Source: a virus
Strand: one strand, 5' to 3'
Length of the DNA: 34,674 nucleotides
Virus record (IMG/VR): IMGVR_UViG_3300044530_000189
Span: 1-34,674 of that record
In this document: piece after piece, positions 2,569 through 28,030 of the stretch
Numbering within the stretch: position 1 is the stretch's first letter
Layout of the letters: every line of letters begins with the position of its first letter
Made by a program: the position numbers and the translations under genes
The notes under the pieces: generated by a model
The model's input: the letters and a program-made list of their open reading frames with translations, nothing else
Told to the model about the DNA's origin: nothing
The model's database searches: none

Positions 2569-2931
2569 ATGAATTATACTAATATTACTATCAACGACCA
2601 AAAGGTCGGACTTAAATTTGGAATGGCTTCATTTAGATATTTACAAGACAAGCTTGTTGAGGGCAAGTCTTATCAAGGTGGAGACTTAAATGAGATTGGT
2701 CTTGCTCACATTATTTATAGTGGTTATTTTAATAACTGCTTGGTTAAAGATGTTGAGCCAACACTAAAGTTTGAGGAGGTTGTCGATTGGATTGAAATGA
2801 ATTTGACAAATGAGGAGGTAATGTCTCAAATAAAGAGCGTTATTGAAATTTGGACTAATAACCAATATATCCAATCTGCTTTAGATGTTGTTGACCAACC
2901 AAAAAAAAAGACATCTCGTGGGAAGAAATAG
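2569..2931 (+). CDS. Tail assembly chaperone, short form (gpG-like)
   Basis: 120 residues. In lambda-like tails the short chaperone and its frameshifted extension bind the tape measure protein and recruit tube subunits. Here the frame is helical (GMASFRYLQDKL, VDWIEMNLTNEEVMSQIK) and ends KKKTSRGKK. Near its 3' end a run of nine A at 2901-2909 followed by G contains A AAA AAA (2901-2907) and A AAA AAG (2904-2910) in the correct phase for a -1 slip. The frame just downstream, offset by -1, has no ATG at its beginning, as expected for a gpG/gpGT pair. Confidence 0.8.
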   Translation: MNYTNITINDQKVGLKFGMASFRYLQDKLVEGKSYQGGDLNEIGLAHIIYSGYFNNCLVKDVEPTLKFEEVVDWIEMNLTNEEVMSQIKSVIEIWTNNQYIQSALDVVDQPKKKTSRGKK

Positions 2932-3209
2932 AAGCATTTGCTTTTGGTGAATTGTGTCTTTTGCCTCGTGATTTTTTTGATATGAGTCCAAGGCATTTGT
3001 CCCTAATGATAAAAGGACACGAGGAGAAAAAGGTCGACACTTATAGGCAAACAAGACTATTGATGTTTACAATGGTGCGCTTAATGGGTGATCCAAAGAG
3101 CGCACCAAAAACTCCAGAGGCATTGTGGAGTTTACCAGGTGATGAGCAATCACAAAGAGGCATTAGTGATAGTGAGGCAAGAGAAATATTCAAAAGGTTA
3201 AGACAATGA
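2569..3209 (+). CDS. Tail assembly chaperone, long form by -1 frameshift (gpGT-like)
   Basis: Slipping -1 at the A-tract (2901-2910) joins the short form to a second frame reading DISWEEIEAFAFGEL, then LCLLPRDFFDMSPRHLSLMI, giving about 213 residues and ending at TGA 3207-3209. The joined part has the W/F-x-P-x-(D/E)F-x-x-(M/L)(S/T)P pattern usual in T-domains of tail chaperones. An ATG-initiated reading of this frame would start only at 2952 and would lose the conserved DISWEEIEAFAFGE segment, which argues for frameshifting. The stop overlaps the ATG of the tape measure gene. The rate of slippage cannot be read from sequence. Confidence 0.78.
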
Positions 3210-22172: not shown

Positions 22173-23087
22173 ATGAGGCACGGATCATTATTTAGCGGTA
22201 TTGGTGGCTTTGACTTGGCTGCCGAATGGATGGGATGGGAAAACGTGTTTCATTGCGAGTGGAATAAATTTGGACAACAAGTATTAAAATATTACTGGCC
22301 TAAAGCAATAAGTTATGAGGACATCACTAAGACAGACTTCACTATTCACCGAGGAAACATTGACATCATCACTGGAGGATTCCCTTGCCAACCATACTCA
22401 TCAGCTGGAAAGCGACTCGGCAAGGAAGATGAGAGACACCTCTGGCCAGAAATGCTTAGAGCAATTAGGGAAGTTCAGCCAAGTTGGGTCGTGGGCGAAA
22501 ACGTACGCGGGCTTACTAATTGGAATGGAGGGATGGTATTCGATGAGGTGCAAGCTGAGTTGGAAGCTGAAGGCTACGAAGTCCTCCCGTTTTTACTTCC
22601 AGCTTGTGCCGTCAACGCACCCCACAGAAGAGACAGAATTTGGTTTATTGCCTACAGTAACCTGTATGGATTCAACGAATGCAACTGCAACAATGAAATC
22701 AAGTCAAGTAAAAGAAGGATCAATGCACTCGGTGACATTGACACGAGCAATGGCGATGGGAATGTTGCCGACACCAAGTTCATTCGATTACAACACGGCA
22801 GAAAAGCAGGACAAGTATTATCAGAGGAAAGAAATACAAAAACAAAAAGGTGTAAATCTTCATTATCCATTAAAACAAATGGCTATGGATATAAATCCAA
22901 CTGGGAAAACTTCCCAACTGTCTCCCCAATTTGTACTGGAGATGATGGGCTTTCCAACCGATTGGACTCTATTACCTTTCCTAAATGGAGACAAGAGTCA
23001 ATAAAGGCTGGTGGAAACGCAATAGTTCCACAAGTAGTACACCAAATATTTAAAGCAATAGAAGAATATGAAAGTTTAATTAATTAA
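22173..23087 (+). CDS. DNA (cytosine-5) methyltransferase
   Basis: 304 residues. It transfers a methyl group from S-adenosylmethionine to C5 of cytosine. Motif I SLFSGIGGFDLA (5-16), motif IV GGFPCQPYS with the nucleophile C72, motif VI ENV (109-111), motif VIII PHRRDRIWF (150-158) and motif X GNAIVPQV near the end are all present, so it should be active. The target-recognition part (about 160-260) is hydrophilic. There is no partner restriction enzyme, so it probably protects phage DNA. A second reading frame is nested inside it (22315-23004). Confidence 0.92.
   Translation: MRHGSLFSGIGGFDLAAEWMGWENVFHCEWNKFGQQVLKYYWPKAISYEDITKTDFTIHRGNIDIITGGFPCQPYSSAGKRLGKEDERHLWPEMLRAIREVQPSWVVGENVRGLTNWNGGMVFDEVQAELEAEGYEVLPFLLPACAVNAPHRRDRIWFIAYSNLYGFNECNCNNEIKSSKRRINALGDIDTSNGDGNVADTKFIRLQHGRKAGQVLSEERNTKTKRCKSSLSIKTNGYGYKSNWENFPTVSPICTGDDGLSNRLDSITFPKWRQESIKAGGNAIVPQVVHQIFKAIEEYESLIN
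22315..23004 (+). CDS. Nested +1-frame protein inside the methyltransferase gene
   Basis: 229 codons with no stop, entirely inside the methyltransferase gene in the +1 frame. The product reads like a genuine phage protein I have seen as a hypothetical companion of such methyltransferases: KMRDTSGQKCLEQLGKFSQV, then YSMRCKLSWKLKATKSSRFY, then FGLLPTVTCMD, a second MGMLPTPSSFDY copy, and LSPQFVLEMMGFPTDWTLLP. LLPTP-type repeats and the (L/S)PQFV-MMGFP-DWT ending recur in that family from memory. Function unknown. Start ATG 22315 is the first in frame; there is no Shine-Dalgarno. It appears to be a real case of overprinting. Confidence 0.68.
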   Translation: MRTSLRQTSLFTEETLTSSLEDSLANHTHQLESDSARKMRDTSGQKCLEQLGKFSQVGSWAKTYAGLLIGMEGWYSMRCKLSWKLKATKSSRFYFQLVPSTHPTEETEFGLLPTVTCMDSTNATATMKSSQVKEGSMHSVTLTRAMAMGMLPTPSSFDYNTAEKQDKYYQRKEIQKQKGVNLHYPLKQMAMDINPTGKTSQLSPQFVLEMMGFPTDWTLLPFLNGDKSQ

Positions 23088-23123: not shown

Positions 23124-23396
23124 ATGAAAGAATCACAACTCCAAACACAGATTAAAAACCGCCTAACCAAGCACGGATGGTTGGTGGTGAAGATTATCTC
23201 CTCATCAATGAATGGTATACCAGACCTAATGTGTATTCGCAAAGGTGTGGTGATATTTTTAGAGGTTAAGACCGATGTAGGTGTCGTTGCACCATTGCAA
23301 GAATATGTAATGAAGGTCTTAAATAGCCATCAAGTACATAGCAGAGTAGTAAGATCAGTAGAAGATGTAGATGTTTATTGTCATAAAACTTATTAA
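23124..23396 (+). CDS. VRR-NUC domain nuclease
   Basis: 90 residues, a stand-alone VRR-NUC domain of the PD-(D/E)XK superfamily. SMNGIPDLMCI (D34), VIFLEVKT (E47, K49) and APLQ (Q59) are the standard motif set, with an early Glu near E3. These small phage nucleases cut branched or structured DNA, in replication or recombination. It stands between two DNA-modification genes and stops directly before the Mom-like start. Confidence 0.87.
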   Translation: MKESQLQTQIKNRLTKHGWLVVKIISSSMNGIPDLMCIRKGVVIFLEVKTDVGVVAPLQEYVMKVLNSHQVHSRVVRSVEDVDVYCHKTY

Positions 23397-24044
23397 ATGA
23401 GCATAAAAGATAAATACTCTGTTAAATCAATAGAAACTTATCTAACTAAAGATTGGCTATTACATAAGCATTATGCTAAAAGGATGTGCAGTATATCTTA
23501 TGCCTTTGGTTTATTTAAAGACAATATTATGGAAGGAGTTTGCACATTTGGAAGTCCACCATCGAGAGCATTGTGTGTTGGTTTATGTGGTGAAGAATTT
23601 GCTTTATCAGTATTAGAATTAAATAGGTTATGTGTTAATGATAATTTAGAAAAAAATACATTAAGTTTTTTTGTATCTAATTCTATAAAACTATTACCAG
23701 ATAATTTAATATTGGTCAGCTACGCTGATACATCACAAGGTCATAATGGTTATATATATCAAGCTACTAATTGGATTTATACTGGTTTAAGTGCTAAACG
23801 TACAGAAAGATATGATATCAATAATCCTAATAAACATTCTAAAAGTATAACAGAAAATAAAAATTATAATTATAATGATTTAGCGGTAAGAAATAGACCA
23901 CAAAAGCACAGATATGTATATTTTACTGGTAAAAAAAATATAGCATTAAAACATTTAAGATATAAAATAGAGCCATATCCAAAAGGCATAAATAAAAGAT
24001 ATGATTCATCATTTATACCTACTACACAAATAGAATTATTTTAA
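23397..24044 (+). CDS. Mom-like DNA adenine modification protein (GNAT-like)
   Basis: 215 residues. The pattern L-x-KHYAKR-x-CSISYAFGLF, then GVCTFGSPPSRALC, LELNRLCVND, ILVSYADTSQGHNGYIYQAT and NWIYTGLS is that of the Mu Mom-type family annotated in many phages as adenine methylcarbamoylation protein (recalled, not searched). Mom converts adenine to a modified base that blocks restriction. The fold is GNAT-like. The gene looks more AT-rich than its neighbours and has many Asn/Lys/Tyr codons, which may mean separate acquisition. Activity in this phage is inferred only. Confidence 0.72.
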   Translation: MSIKDKYSVKSIETYLTKDWLLHKHYAKRMCSISYAFGLFKDNIMEGVCTFGSPPSRALCVGLCGEEFALSVLELNRLCVNDNLEKNTLSFFVSNSIKLLPDNLILVSYADTSQGHNGYIYQATNWIYTGLSAKRTERYDINNPNKHSKSITENKNYNYNDLAVRNRPQKHRYVYFTGKKNIALKHLRYKIEPYPKGINKRYDSSFIPTTQIELF

Positions 24045-24046
24045 TT

Positions 24047-26659
24047 ATGCTTGAACTTATAAGAGAATTAGACTATGCTGGGGTTAAGGTACTTCCCATT
24101 AAATACACCGATGGGCGCATATATCATATTTATGAGTACAATACAAAATTCGAGAACGGATTAAATGATGATGAGCATCAAGAGTGGATTAATAAAGGGT
24201 TTAGTAATGGTATAGCGGTGCTAATGAGCAAAGCCAACCCCAATCTTAAATGTTTAGATTTTGATGAGAAGAATGCCATTGGGCGCAATGTGTTTATGGG
24301 TTGGAAGGCTTTGATTGATCCCATCATTTATAGTAAGCTTGTGATTGAGCGCACTCGTAGTAATGGCTACCACGTTTATTTTTTGTGCAATGACAAGTGT
24401 GATGTCCACGGCATAGCTTATAATGATGAGGGTAGGGAAGTGATTGGGTTGCGTGGTGATAATTTCAATGGTATTACTTATTGCTCTCCTACGCCAAAGT
24501 ATCAATTTATTCAACGTAGTTTGCTTGAGTTAGAGACGCTTGACTTTGATGAGATGATGCAACTTATAGATTGTGGTTACCAGTTCAACACATATAAGGG
24601 TAATGCGATTACATCAAGCGGAGGAGTGAAGCAACGCTCAATTGCTAAGTTCCCTCAGCCTCCAATAAAATACAAACAAGTAATGGACATATTTGATGAG
24701 AAGGTCGATGAGATGTTCATACCTAATTACCTTGAGACACTTGGTTGGTCGCTTAATGGTAGAAAGCTTGGCAATGGTAAGGATTATGGTAAGTTTATTG
24801 AATTGTATCGACCTGGGAAAGGTGAAGATGAGCGCAATGTGAGATCGGCATCATATTATTATGATAGCAAGAGGTTGAGCGTTTATACCGACTCCATTGG
24901 AGTAAAGTTGCCATCCATCAATAATAGCGAAGGACTCGCATCGTGGCTATCACCTTATCAGGTTCTTTTTTATCTAAATGATAGGAACTGGGATGAGACA
25001 TCACGAGTAGTGGTTGATTTGTGTGGGCAGATGGGCATTGAACTCCCAGAGCGAGTCCCAATGGTATCATCTGTAATAGGTAGAGGTGCTGCAATATCGT
25101 GGAGGCTTGAGATTCGTGGCATCCAACTATGGGCGATTGAGAGTGGGTTTATGATGATGAAAATGTCCATCGATGATGATGCGCCATCTCGTTTGATTAG
25201 GGTAGTAGAAAATGTAATCTACGACATAGACGAAAGCGACATCCAACGTGCCTTTGTTGAGTTTGTAATGGTTGAGTATATGGAGGCTGATGCGCAAAGG
25301 TTGTTAATTGCCTTTTTGCCAAGGTTGATGTCGTATTTGACCATTCTACCTCAATTTGATGGCAACATTCTTAGAGATGCCTCGGATTGTAGTTATTTGT
25401 TATTTAATAATGGGGTATTGAAGGTTACTGGTAGTGAGGTGGAGTTGATTAAGTACAATGAACTTGATAGTTATGTTTTCGTAAGGGATATAAAGCCTTT
25501 CGATTATAAACCCAACAATGACGCTGGGTCGTTTGTCCAGTTCATCAATATGATCTCGCTTGACGAAGGTCATAAGAAATTTTTAATGAGTGCGTTTGGT
25601 TACATATTGCACAACTTTAAGCGCAAGAGTTTCGCCAAAGCGGTGATGATAATTGAGGATGTAGATGACCAAGAGGAAGCAAGAGGTAGGTCGGGGAAGG
25701 GACTACTTGGGCAATTCATCAAATGGATAAGGCAAACCATCGAGCAAGATGGTAGGAATTACAAGACCGACTCCCAGTTCAAGATGCAACGCATCTCACC
25801 TTGGACACAAGTGTTTTATTTGAACGATCCGCAAAAGGGACTCCCTATCCAACAGTTCTATAACTACATCACTGATGATTTTCTCATCGAGAATAAGGGT
25901 AAAAAGTCCTACACCATACCTTTTAATAAGAGTCCAAAGGTGTTTATTACCACTAACTTTTTGCCGAGTTTGGAAAGCGATTCGGATAAAGATAGGTTCA
26001 TCGTTGTCCCTATTAAGAAGGTGTTTAGTTCAGTTTATAGGCTCAAAGATGCGTTTAATGGGCAAGATTTTTTTAGTGAAGAATGGGATTATTATGAAAA
26101 GATGAGTGCTATAAACTTTGCAATTGAGTGTTTGCAAGTGTATTTGAGAGAGGGAGTGGTGGAGTATCAAAACGCCAAAATGGATGATAATAAGGCTAAG
26201 AGATTGTTGCAAGATCAAGTGCCAGAGTTCATAATTGAGGTGCTTGAGCAAGGAATTAGTACCTACAAACTCGCTAAAAACCACCTTGAATTTGAGGAAA
26301 TGATGCAACCATATGATCAATTGCAACACGATAAGGATAGTTTAATTGGTTGTTTTGAATGGGAATCAGGTGGCTTAAATGTTTACAATTCTCATTTATT
26401 GAGATACTGTATAAAGGCTTTTAAAGTCAAAATGTTGGACAAATATTTTAGTCGGAAGGTCAAAACATATTGCGATATTAACCAATTTGAGGTGTCTCAA
26501 AAGAGGTCGGTGAAGCACGGAAGATTTATTTTTATCCACAATTTAGATAGCCATCAAAATAAAAAGTTGATGGCAAGTGATGGCTTTTTGATGGCAAATG
26601 ATGGCAAGTTGATGGCAAGTGGGTATGAACCTATTATAAAAAATGATGATATGTTCTAA
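24047..26659 (+). CDS. Primase-helicase (prim-pol plus D5/SF3-type helicase)
   Basis: 870 residues. The N-terminal third has archaeo-eukaryotic primase features: LDFDEKN with D71 and D73, and RTRSNGYHVYF with H109. The C-terminal part is a D5-like SF3 helicase: GRSGKGLLGQFIKW (about 548-561, Walker A), QVFYLNDPQKG (Walker B region) and PKVFITTNFLPS (motif C, about 626-637). Such proteins prime and unwind at phage origins. The last 35 residues contain LMASDG/LMANDG/LMASG repeats because the reading frame runs through the iterons of the putative origin. Confidence 0.85.
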   Translation: MLELIRELDYAGVKVLPIKYTDGRIYHIYEYNTKFENGLNDDEHQEWINKGFSNGIAVLMSKANPNLKCLDFDEKNAIGRNVFMGWKALIDPIIYSKLVIERTRSNGYHVYFLCNDKCDVHGIAYNDEGREVIGLRGDNFNGITYCSPTPKYQFIQRSLLELETLDFDEMMQLIDCGYQFNTYKGNAITSSGGVKQRSIAKFPQPPIKYKQVMDIFDEKVDEMFIPNYLETLGWSLNGRKLGNGKDYGKFIELYRPGKGEDERNVRSASYYYDSKRLSVYTDSIGVKLPSINNSEGLASWLSPYQVLFYLNDRNWDETSRVVVDLCGQMGIELPERVPMVSSVIGRGAAISWRLEIRGIQLWAIESGFMMMKMSIDDDAPSRLIRVVENVIYDIDESDIQRAFVEFVMVEYMEADAQRLLIAFLPRLMSYLTILPQFDGNILRDASDCSYLLFNNGVLKVTGSEVELIKYNELDSYVFVRDIKPFDYKPNNDAGSFVQFINMISLDEGHKKFLMSAFGYILHNFKRKSFAKAVMIIEDVDDQEEARGRSGKGLLGQFIKWIRQTIEQDGRNYKTDSQFKMQRISPWTQVFYLNDPQKGLPIQQFYNYITDDFLIENKGKKSYTIPFNKSPKVFITTNFLPSLESDSDKDRFIVVPIKKVFSSVYRLKDAFNGQDFFSEEWDYYEKMSAINFAIECLQVYLREGVVEYQNAKMDDNKAKRLLQDQVPEFIIEVLEQGISTYKLAKNHLEFEEMMQPYDQLQHDKDSLIGCFEWESGGLNVYNSHLLRYCIKAFKVKMLDKYFSRKVKTYCDINQFEVSQKRSVKHGRFIFIHNLDSHQNKKLMASDGFLMANDGKLMASGYEPIIKNDDMF
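26532..26540 (+). promoter_or_regulatory. Perfect consensus DnaA box (TTATCCACA)
   Basis: TTATCCACA, identical to the E. coli consensus, lies in the 3' end of the primase gene, 27 nt before the first direct iteron. A second, degenerate box GTTTCCACA (one mismatch to TTWTNCACA) is at 26866-26874 on the far side of the AT-rich tract. Confidence 0.6.
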
Positions 26660-26874
26660 AAATATGCCGAAAAATAGCCAACACGACCATCAAAAGCCAT
26701 CAAGTGAAAAAGTTTATTGGCTATCGCTCTTTATTGATTATCAATGCGTTAGGAGGTGTATGCCAATAAAACCATCAAATTTCTTAAATTATAATAATAA
26801 TAATAATATATATATATACATATATATAGGGTAGAAGTGGGATTTTTGATGGCTTTGATGGCTCGGTTTCCACA
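26550..26874. other. Putative replication origin with helically phased iterons and AT-rich tract
   Basis: TGATGGC occurs at 26568, 26578, 26589, 26599 and 26610, spacings 10, 11, 10, 11, matching the 10.5-bp helical turn. Inverted copies (GCCATCA) are at 26550 and 26696, a near-copy ACCATCA at 26686 (10 nt from 26696) and 26771. Next is an ATA/TA microsatellite (about 26784-26828), a plausible unwinding element, then direct copies at 26847 and 26856 and a degenerate DnaA box. The perfect DnaA box at 26532 and the DnaA domain IV-like gene at 26945 complete an origin layout. There is no credible gene in 26660-26944. Confidence 0.68.
26784..26828. repeat. AT microsatellite ((ATA)n then (TA)n)
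   Basis: About 45 bp made almost only of A and T: ATAATAATAATAATAAT followed by TATATATATA-type repeats. It is the lowest-melting stretch I see in the window and lies between iteron groups, so it is the candidate DNA unwinding element. Confidence 0.75.
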
Positions 26875-26944
26875 ATTTGGTGTTATGGGTAAAAATCTTG
26901 AGATTTCTTAGGTGATAAAATGACAAACTATAAAACTAAAAAAA

Positions 26945-27337
26945 ATGAACTTAGATCAGTTGATGGACATTGTTGCAAGTGTTAGTGGACAAAGCAAGGA
27001 GAAGATAATGGGGAAGGATAGGTATAGGAAACTGGTGTTACCAAGATATATATTTTCTTATGTTGCCAGAGTAAAGCTTAAAGAGACATTTATAGATATT
27101 GCTCATTATCTTGATGCTCATCATTCAACGATTATTTATTCGGTTGATAAGATTGCATCTTACATTGAGATAGGTGATGAGTTGACAATAGAATTATATA
27201 AAGGTGTAAAGGAGGCGGTAGCTAAGTACACCAATGAGCCTATAAGAGTGATGCTTACGTTTGATGATGAGTCAAGAGTCAACGAGGCAATACTTGATAT
27301 AGTAAATAAATGGGAATGTAGAGCCGAGAAGTTATAA
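26945..27337 (+). CDS. DnaA domain IV-like DNA-binding protein
   Basis: 130 residues. Residues 4-75 match the C-terminal DNA-binding domain of DnaA: DIVASVSGQSKEKIMGKDRY, LVLPRYIFSYVARVKLKET, IAHYLDAHHSTIIYSVDKI, including the D/H-HSTI signature at about 59-63 that reads the DnaA box. There is no AAA+ domain. It probably binds the DnaA box or iterons upstream and acts as initiator helper, or as a competitor of host DnaA. The last 50 residues are unassigned. It begins 71 nt after the distal DnaA-like box. Confidence 0.8.
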   Translation: MNLDQLMDIVASVSGQSKEKIMGKDRYRKLVLPRYIFSYVARVKLKETFIDIAHYLDAHHSTIIYSVDKIASYIEIGDELTIELYKGVKEAVAKYTNEPIRVMLTFDDESRVNEAILDIVNKWECRAEKL

Positions 27338-27947: not shown

Positions 27948-27978
27948 TGATAGGGTGGGGGAGGACTTGATAATGAGT

Positions 27979-28030
27979 GAGTTGTGTGTGAGTTGTGTGT
28001 GAGTTAGGTGTCTACTTAACATAATGTTAA
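27979..28030. repeat. 11-bp direct repeats plus 15-bp palindrome, pac/TerS site candidate
   Basis: GAGTTGTGTGT at 27979-27989 and 27990-28000 and a degenerate third copy at 28001-28011, followed by the palindrome TTAACATAATGTTAA (28016-28030). Repeats with one-helical-turn spacing next to a TerS gene recall packaging (pac) sites. This is position-based inference. The gap 27948-28252 holds no credible gene. Confidence 0.45.

Follow-up and report, generated by a model that had tools for sequence, protein, structure and literature searches.

The question raised by this locus was whether the short repeats between a primase-helicase gene and a DnaA-like gene form a phage replication origin and, if so, which neighbouring protein reads them. 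The window, meaning the whole stretch of DNA analysed, was the virus record IMGVR_UViG_3300044530_000189 (34,674 bases). By profile searches it was found to encode the terminase, portal, head and tail proteins expected of a tailed phage. Its two ends adjoined each other in three relatives when the sequences were compared, indicating that the window is a near-complete, circularly permuted genome. No close relatives of the window primase or terminase were found in the bacterial genomes searched. A Mom-like DNA modification gene (23397-24044; PF25680, 2.5e-38) lay immediately upstream of the primase-helicase gene and was adjoined by genes for a C5-cytosine methyltransferase (22173-23087) and a Hjc/VRR-type nuclease (23124-23396). 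A perfect 11-bp tandem repeat, GTGAGTTGTGT (2.6 copies, 27977-28005), was located a little upstream of the terminase gene. Judged from its sequence, the region 26550-26862 is best read as the phage replication origin. Its features and those of the flanking genes are given below, where type A denotes the iteron lineage of the window.

24047-26659, plus strand: primase-helicase gene, 870 aa (phrog_28855, 2e-40; phrog_19930)
26447-26542, plus strand: codons of a putative winged helix (FSRKVKTYCDINQFEVSQKRSVKHGRFIFIH; residues about 800-832, MAFFT alignment), the proposed iteron reader
26532-26540, plus strand: TTATCCACA, DnaA-box-like, coding F-I-H of the putative winged helix; probably a chance match
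26550-26558, plus strand: iteron GCCATCAAA, inside the primase gene, opposite in orientation to the array
26568-26616, minus strand: five TGATGGC units (RCCATCAAA-type on the minus strand), 10-11 bp spacing, encoding KLMASDGFLMANDGKLMAS
26686-26703, plus strand: iteron pair ACCATCAAA and GCCATCAAG, 9 bp apart; 15/17 positions invariant in type A relatives
26734-26744: palindrome TTGATTATCAA, matched by none of 300 shuffles in the window; in some relatives the signal was weaker or lacked significance
26762-26779, plus strand: iteron GCCAATAAAACCATCAAA, upstream of the AT-rich element; 17/18 positions invariant
About 26780-26830: AT-rich microsatellite that may serve as DNA unwinding element; among type A relatives, 44/51 positions did not vary
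26845-26862, minus strand: pair of inverted iterons at a 9-bp spacing, TTTGATGGCTTTGATGGC, beyond the AT-rich element; 18/18 positions invariant in 11 type A sequences
26945-27337, plus strand: gene for a stand-alone DnaA domain IV protein, 130 aa (PF08299, 2e-12)

TGATGGC was found 17 times in the whole window where 4.2 copies were expected, a count reached by none of 100 shuffles, and nine of the 17 matches were packed into the 313 bp of 26550-26862. The fuller unit on the opposite strand, RCCATCAAA, occurred 8 times against 1.1 expected (0/100 shuffles), with six of the eight in the same interval. The locus thus showed a beyond-chance cluster of short repeats that share one sequence, as is characteristic of an iteron-type origin. 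From the 3'-terminal part of the primase-helicase gene, about ten iterons extended across the spacer and flanked the AT-rich element with opposed copies. The first-pass annotation had placed TGATGGC units at 26568, 26578, 26589, 26599 and 26610 with a 10-11-10-11 spacing; these starts were confirmed, as were inverted copies at 26550 and 26696 and additional direct copies at 26847 and 26856. Its proposal that every copy lies on one helical face is not general, since the 26847/26856 pair is spaced by 9 bp. The 10-11 spacing of the five units also amounts to a 21-bp, 7-codon repeat. TCCACAATTT was present at both ends of the iteron region (26535-26544 and 26869-26878), and its second copy was partly kept in relatives.

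Five units with a 21-bp, 7-codon period that encode LMASDG might be a coding repeat only, with the seven-residue tail repeat of the protein accounting for the array. When six type A primase genes of 83-90% DNA identity were compared, none of the 25 third codon positions in 26547-26622 varied, compared with 63% elsewhere (P = 4e-11). Of all invariant stretches of the primase gene, 26546-26629 was the longest at 28 codons, and no other 28-codon run was free of third-position changes. Copies of the repeat also extended outside the gene in both orientations, and tail-less relatives had arrays of other sequence there; a purely coding origin of the array is therefore almost certainly wrong. The frozen third positions are explained by the coding sequence doubling as putative binding sites, in keeping with the earlier description of dual-use DNA in which the array lies partly within the primase-helicase gene and overlaps the LMASDG codons. 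Two of the five in-gene units were altered in relatives L007 and L008, likewise both inverted GCCATCA copies, showing that individual iteron copies can turn over.

Searches with the primase or the DnaA-like domain IV protein (DnaA_C) as query retrieved close relatives only, and the array was present in all those covering the region. Alignment searches with both proteins for mid-distance relatives returned near relatives only; a terminase search supplied the useful set of 80 loci. The order primase-helicase, spacer, DnaA domain IV gene, upstream of the terminase, recurred in about 45 loci. The primase-helicase, as the adjacent candidate initiator gene of an iteron origin, was immediately upstream in every relative whose sequence extended far enough, and the DnaA_C gene was conserved beside every array. 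All spacers tested had over-represented repeats; the excess was strong in most of them and weak (P up to 0.05) in L074 and a few type C loci. The iteron sequence itself followed lineage: RCCATCAAA in type A, GTACRCGATTTT in type B, TGTAGTCCATTTT in type C and, at a single locus, TGTGCTACATTTT in type D; L074 had intermediate sites, among them TAACATCATTTT. Type C iterons in several loci were read from other repeat analyses, the automatic motif search having locked onto GGGGTTTTTGG there. In three copy-rich larger type B contigs, all copies of exact GTACACGATT were at the one locus, and the reversed control pattern gave 0. Outside type A, identity to the window was about 22-25% for the primase and about 17-30% for the DnaA-like protein (L094 excepted, 47%). 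The common layout consisted of opposed copies in the primase 3' end, direct copies in the spacer, the palindrome, further copies and the AT-rich stretch; opposed copies between this stretch and the DnaA-like gene were clear in types A and B. Steps of 9 bp (pairs), 11 bp and 19-20 bp recurred among relatives.

The AT-rich microsatellite described in the first reading was present at about 26780-26830 and adjoined the array, as a candidate unwinding element of an iteron origin would. A palindrome near TTGATWATCAA was found ~59-90 bp past the primase stop in most relatives with any iteron type, sometimes altered symmetrically (CTGATAATCAG). An IHF consensus at the palindrome was discarded, being seen in some sequences only. 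A 63-aa ORF (26643-26834) overlapping the spacer is probably no gene because a 1-bp difference breaks the frame in several relatives. Just upstream of the DnaA-like gene, a 41-bp insertion (26877-26917) was shared by the window and L011 in the alignment, and probably by L012 as judged by spacing; the other type A relatives were without it. Many type B and C relatives carried GGGGTTTTTGG-like repeat runs between the AT-rich element and the DnaA-like gene, highly variable in length (L089, about 800-945; L084, about 2840-3040; L080, 4926-5030); the window had none.

In the window and in several relatives of type B, the spacer folded better than shuffles (z -3.0 to -6.2), which could mean that recognition of the origin depends on a large stem-loop, the mode proposed for pRN1 and phage BIP-1 with their similar domain order (PMC4234260), and that the inverted iterons serve only as its stem. 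However, the fold was missing from type C and D relatives (z +0.9, +0.2 and -0.3) and weak in several others, whereas iterons were present in all. The stem-loop was rejected as a conserved signal because it was not common to types C and D, and recognition by folding seems very improbable.

The plain cumulative GC skew, which the first-pass annotation had put forward as a check, had no turning point and was uninformative because all genes run one way. When GC3 skew was calculated on the circularised genome, the halves after and before 26.8 kb differed by 0.123 (permutation P = 0.024). The best split fell at 24.0-24.8 kb, and the contrast weakly favours an origin at 26.8 kb. Together with the conserved place and layout, the DNA-level constraint and the AT-rich element, this supports the iteron-type origin claimed at the outset. 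Iterons of Rep proteins often autoregulate as well, and the array precedes the DnaA_C gene, which it could control. An operator or partition site (repressor, autoregulation, centromere-like) in place of an origin is nevertheless improbable: opposed iterons flank the AT-rich element, the array is placed downstream of the primase-helicase like P4 crr and the SaPI iterons, and neither ParA nor ParB was found among the window proteins scanned (part of the ORFs).

The second part of the question was which protein reads the iterons. The AlphaFold model of the DnaA-like protein had a pLDDT of 92 and matched the DnaA-DNA complexes 3pvp and 1j1v in Foldseek. The DnaA-like gene recorded by the first-pass annotation thus does encode a DnaA domain IV, but the AAA+ domain expected for a DnaA-type (oriC) origin was absent from the 26945-27337 product and a role as iteron reader was not supported. 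Enriched DnaA boxes, likewise expected at oriC, were not seen in the window, where TTATNCACA occurred 3 times against 2.9 expected. The perfect DnaA box reported at 26532 is real as a sequence (TTATCCACA); its meaning as an element did not hold up, with a chance-level count and no counterpart in the other iteron lineages. It sits in a separate 7-codon invariant run of the primase gene, and its conservation says little because, by our estimate, about one such run arises by chance in 869 codons at ~0.39 invariant codons.

Iteron class was shared much more in line with the primase C-terminus than with DnaA_C. In 78 pairs of representative loci, iteron-class sharing was predicted by primase C-terminus identity with an AUC of 0.92 and by DnaA_C identity with 0.63 (0.98 and 0.61 with one locus per lineage), figures that describe the pattern and do not test it, since locus pairs are not independent. 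Lineages were few (one C, one D) and relatives inside them are not independent of each other. In trees, the type B primases formed one clade; the DnaA-like proteins beside the same iterons were very divergent, with the type C ones among them. GTACRCGATT iterons adjoined DnaA_C proteins only 19-32% identical. L094 had a DnaA_C 47% identical to that of the window, yet its iterons were D-type and its primase C-terminus was nearer to types B/C (31-42% vs 18%). Compared with L044, L034 had a 100% identical primase C-terminus and like iterons, with a DnaA_C only 65% identical and its helix-turn-helix replaced.

These swaps bear on the view that the DnaA domain IV protein binds the iterons, marks the origin and recruits the primase-helicase. 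Domain IV is a DNA-binding fold and its gene adjoins every array; moreover, L074, L079, L080 and L093, whose DnaA_C is nearest to type A after L094, include ACATCATTTT, which resembles RCCATCAAA, and the conserved DHxTxxH contacts could be common to all DnaA_C. Against this, the same GTACRCGATT iterons stood beside DnaA_C proteins of low identity and different iterons beside ones 47% identical, and the iterons of L034 were unchanged although its helix-turn-helix was replaced. What emerges most clearly from the swaps is that no match between the DnaA-like protein and the iterons is required, and we consider this protein unlikely to be the reader that the first-pass annotation had suggested. They argue more strongly against DnaA_C than for the helicase, as linkage of the array to the primase gene could by itself yield part of the co-inheritance pattern. 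Taken together, the data suggest that the iterons are read by the C-terminus of the primase-helicase rather than by its DnaA-like neighbour.

The primase-helicase comprised a Prim-Pol-like N-terminus, an SF3-type helicase, a putative C-terminal winged helix and the repetitive tail encoded by the iterons. SF3 motifs of the window protein were assigned by eye (Walker A at about residues 547-552, KVFITTN at about 631-637). The primases of relatives carried Pfam Prim-Pol PF09250 (3e-15 to 4e-12) and DUF5906, and the window primase profile matched the Prim-Pol/DUF5906 relatives over nearly its whole length (hhalign 99.8%, E 2e-29); through relatives and homology, the SF3-type helicase domain and fused primase of a P4 alpha/SaPI-type initiator were thereby found. 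In the MAFFT alignment, the C-terminus was matched with KRFTKAIEESC..GGKKVYKF of relatives, and its sequence pattern resembles that of a winged helix. When the C-termini alone were compared directly by profile, the result was not significant, a PDB sequence search with the winged helix and the primase gave no match, and the comparison with the P4 alpha profile was not significant at low power (the P4 C-terminus query had one wrong residue near its start). The C-terminal part of the full-length primase model was poor and of low confidence. The winged helix is kept as putative because PDB and P4 matches were absent and this part of the model was poor.

On balance, 26550-26862 is probably an origin read by the C-terminus of the Prim-Pol/SF3 helicase, with the DnaA domain IV protein as an accessory. 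The winged-helix-like C-terminal domain would bind the iterons, helicase rings would form to either side of the AT-rich element and open it, and the Prim-Pol domain fused to the helicase would make the initial primers. The DnaA domain IV protein encoded next to it would be an accessory factor, acting as a regulator or as binder of another element, not as iteron reader. If the helicase is the reader, the type B C-terminus is expected to shift GTACACGATTTT, not CCATCAAA. A more speculative and rather unlikely extension is a two-reader origin, in which the iterons and the reading domain of the helicase would co-diversify and produce replication incompatibility, while an interchangeable DnaA domain IV would read a constant element (e.g., TTGATWATCAA) or manipulate host initiation. 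The relatives constitute a natural experiment in which a single origin layout is combined with four or more iteron sequences and with exchanged DnaA-like partners; it favours the primase-helicase as the protein that sets specificity.

By analogy with P4 and the SaPIs, the most likely arrangement is one in which a Prim-Pol/SF3 helicase acts as a self-loading initiator and binds the iterons that follow immediately after its own gene. In the SaPIs, Rep helicases use a C-terminal domain to recognise iterons located just past the end of their genes, and the Rep of SaPI5 combines primase and helicase in one protein (PMC7581432, also describing the SaPI Rep-ori replicons of Ubeda et al. 2007). The window locus would resemble SaPI Rep-ori in its self-loading initiator helicase with C-terminal DNA-binding domain, its iterons directly downstream and the two hexamers proposed. 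It differs in being the phage's own replication module, in its N-terminal Prim-Pol, in iterons reaching into the helicase gene and in the stand-alone DnaA domain IV gene beside the array. P4 alpha combines a primase and an SF3-type helicase with a C-terminal winged helix that binds origin repeats (PMC4234260); in the P4 record, 8-bp type 1 repeats occurred in both orientations, some 9-11 bp apart, and crr lay directly downstream of the alpha gene. The window shares with P4 the primase and SF3-type helicase, a putative winged helix and two-orientation iterons downstream of the gene; unlike the window, P4 has a TOPRIM-type primase and two iteron loci. In pRN1 ORF904 and phage BIP-1, an archaeo-eukaryotic-type primase is joined to an SF3 helicase and a winged helix, and the study of these systems proposed stem-loop recognition and saw no iterons (PMC4234260). 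The window has the same primase, SF3 and putative winged-helix order with a probable origin just downstream of the gene; in contrast, iterons were present in every lineage here and a stem-loop in some only (type A and several B). This suggests that Prim-Pol/SF3 initiators can use iterons, a finding absent from the pRN1/BIP-1 study. With bacterial DnaA, the product of the neighbouring gene is predicted to share the domain IV fold, but unlike DnaA/oriC, AAA+ was absent, DnaA boxes were not enriched and the iterons were unlike TTATNCACA. The locus is of a known kind, a primase-helicase with downstream iterons, to which a DnaA domain IV gene is added here.
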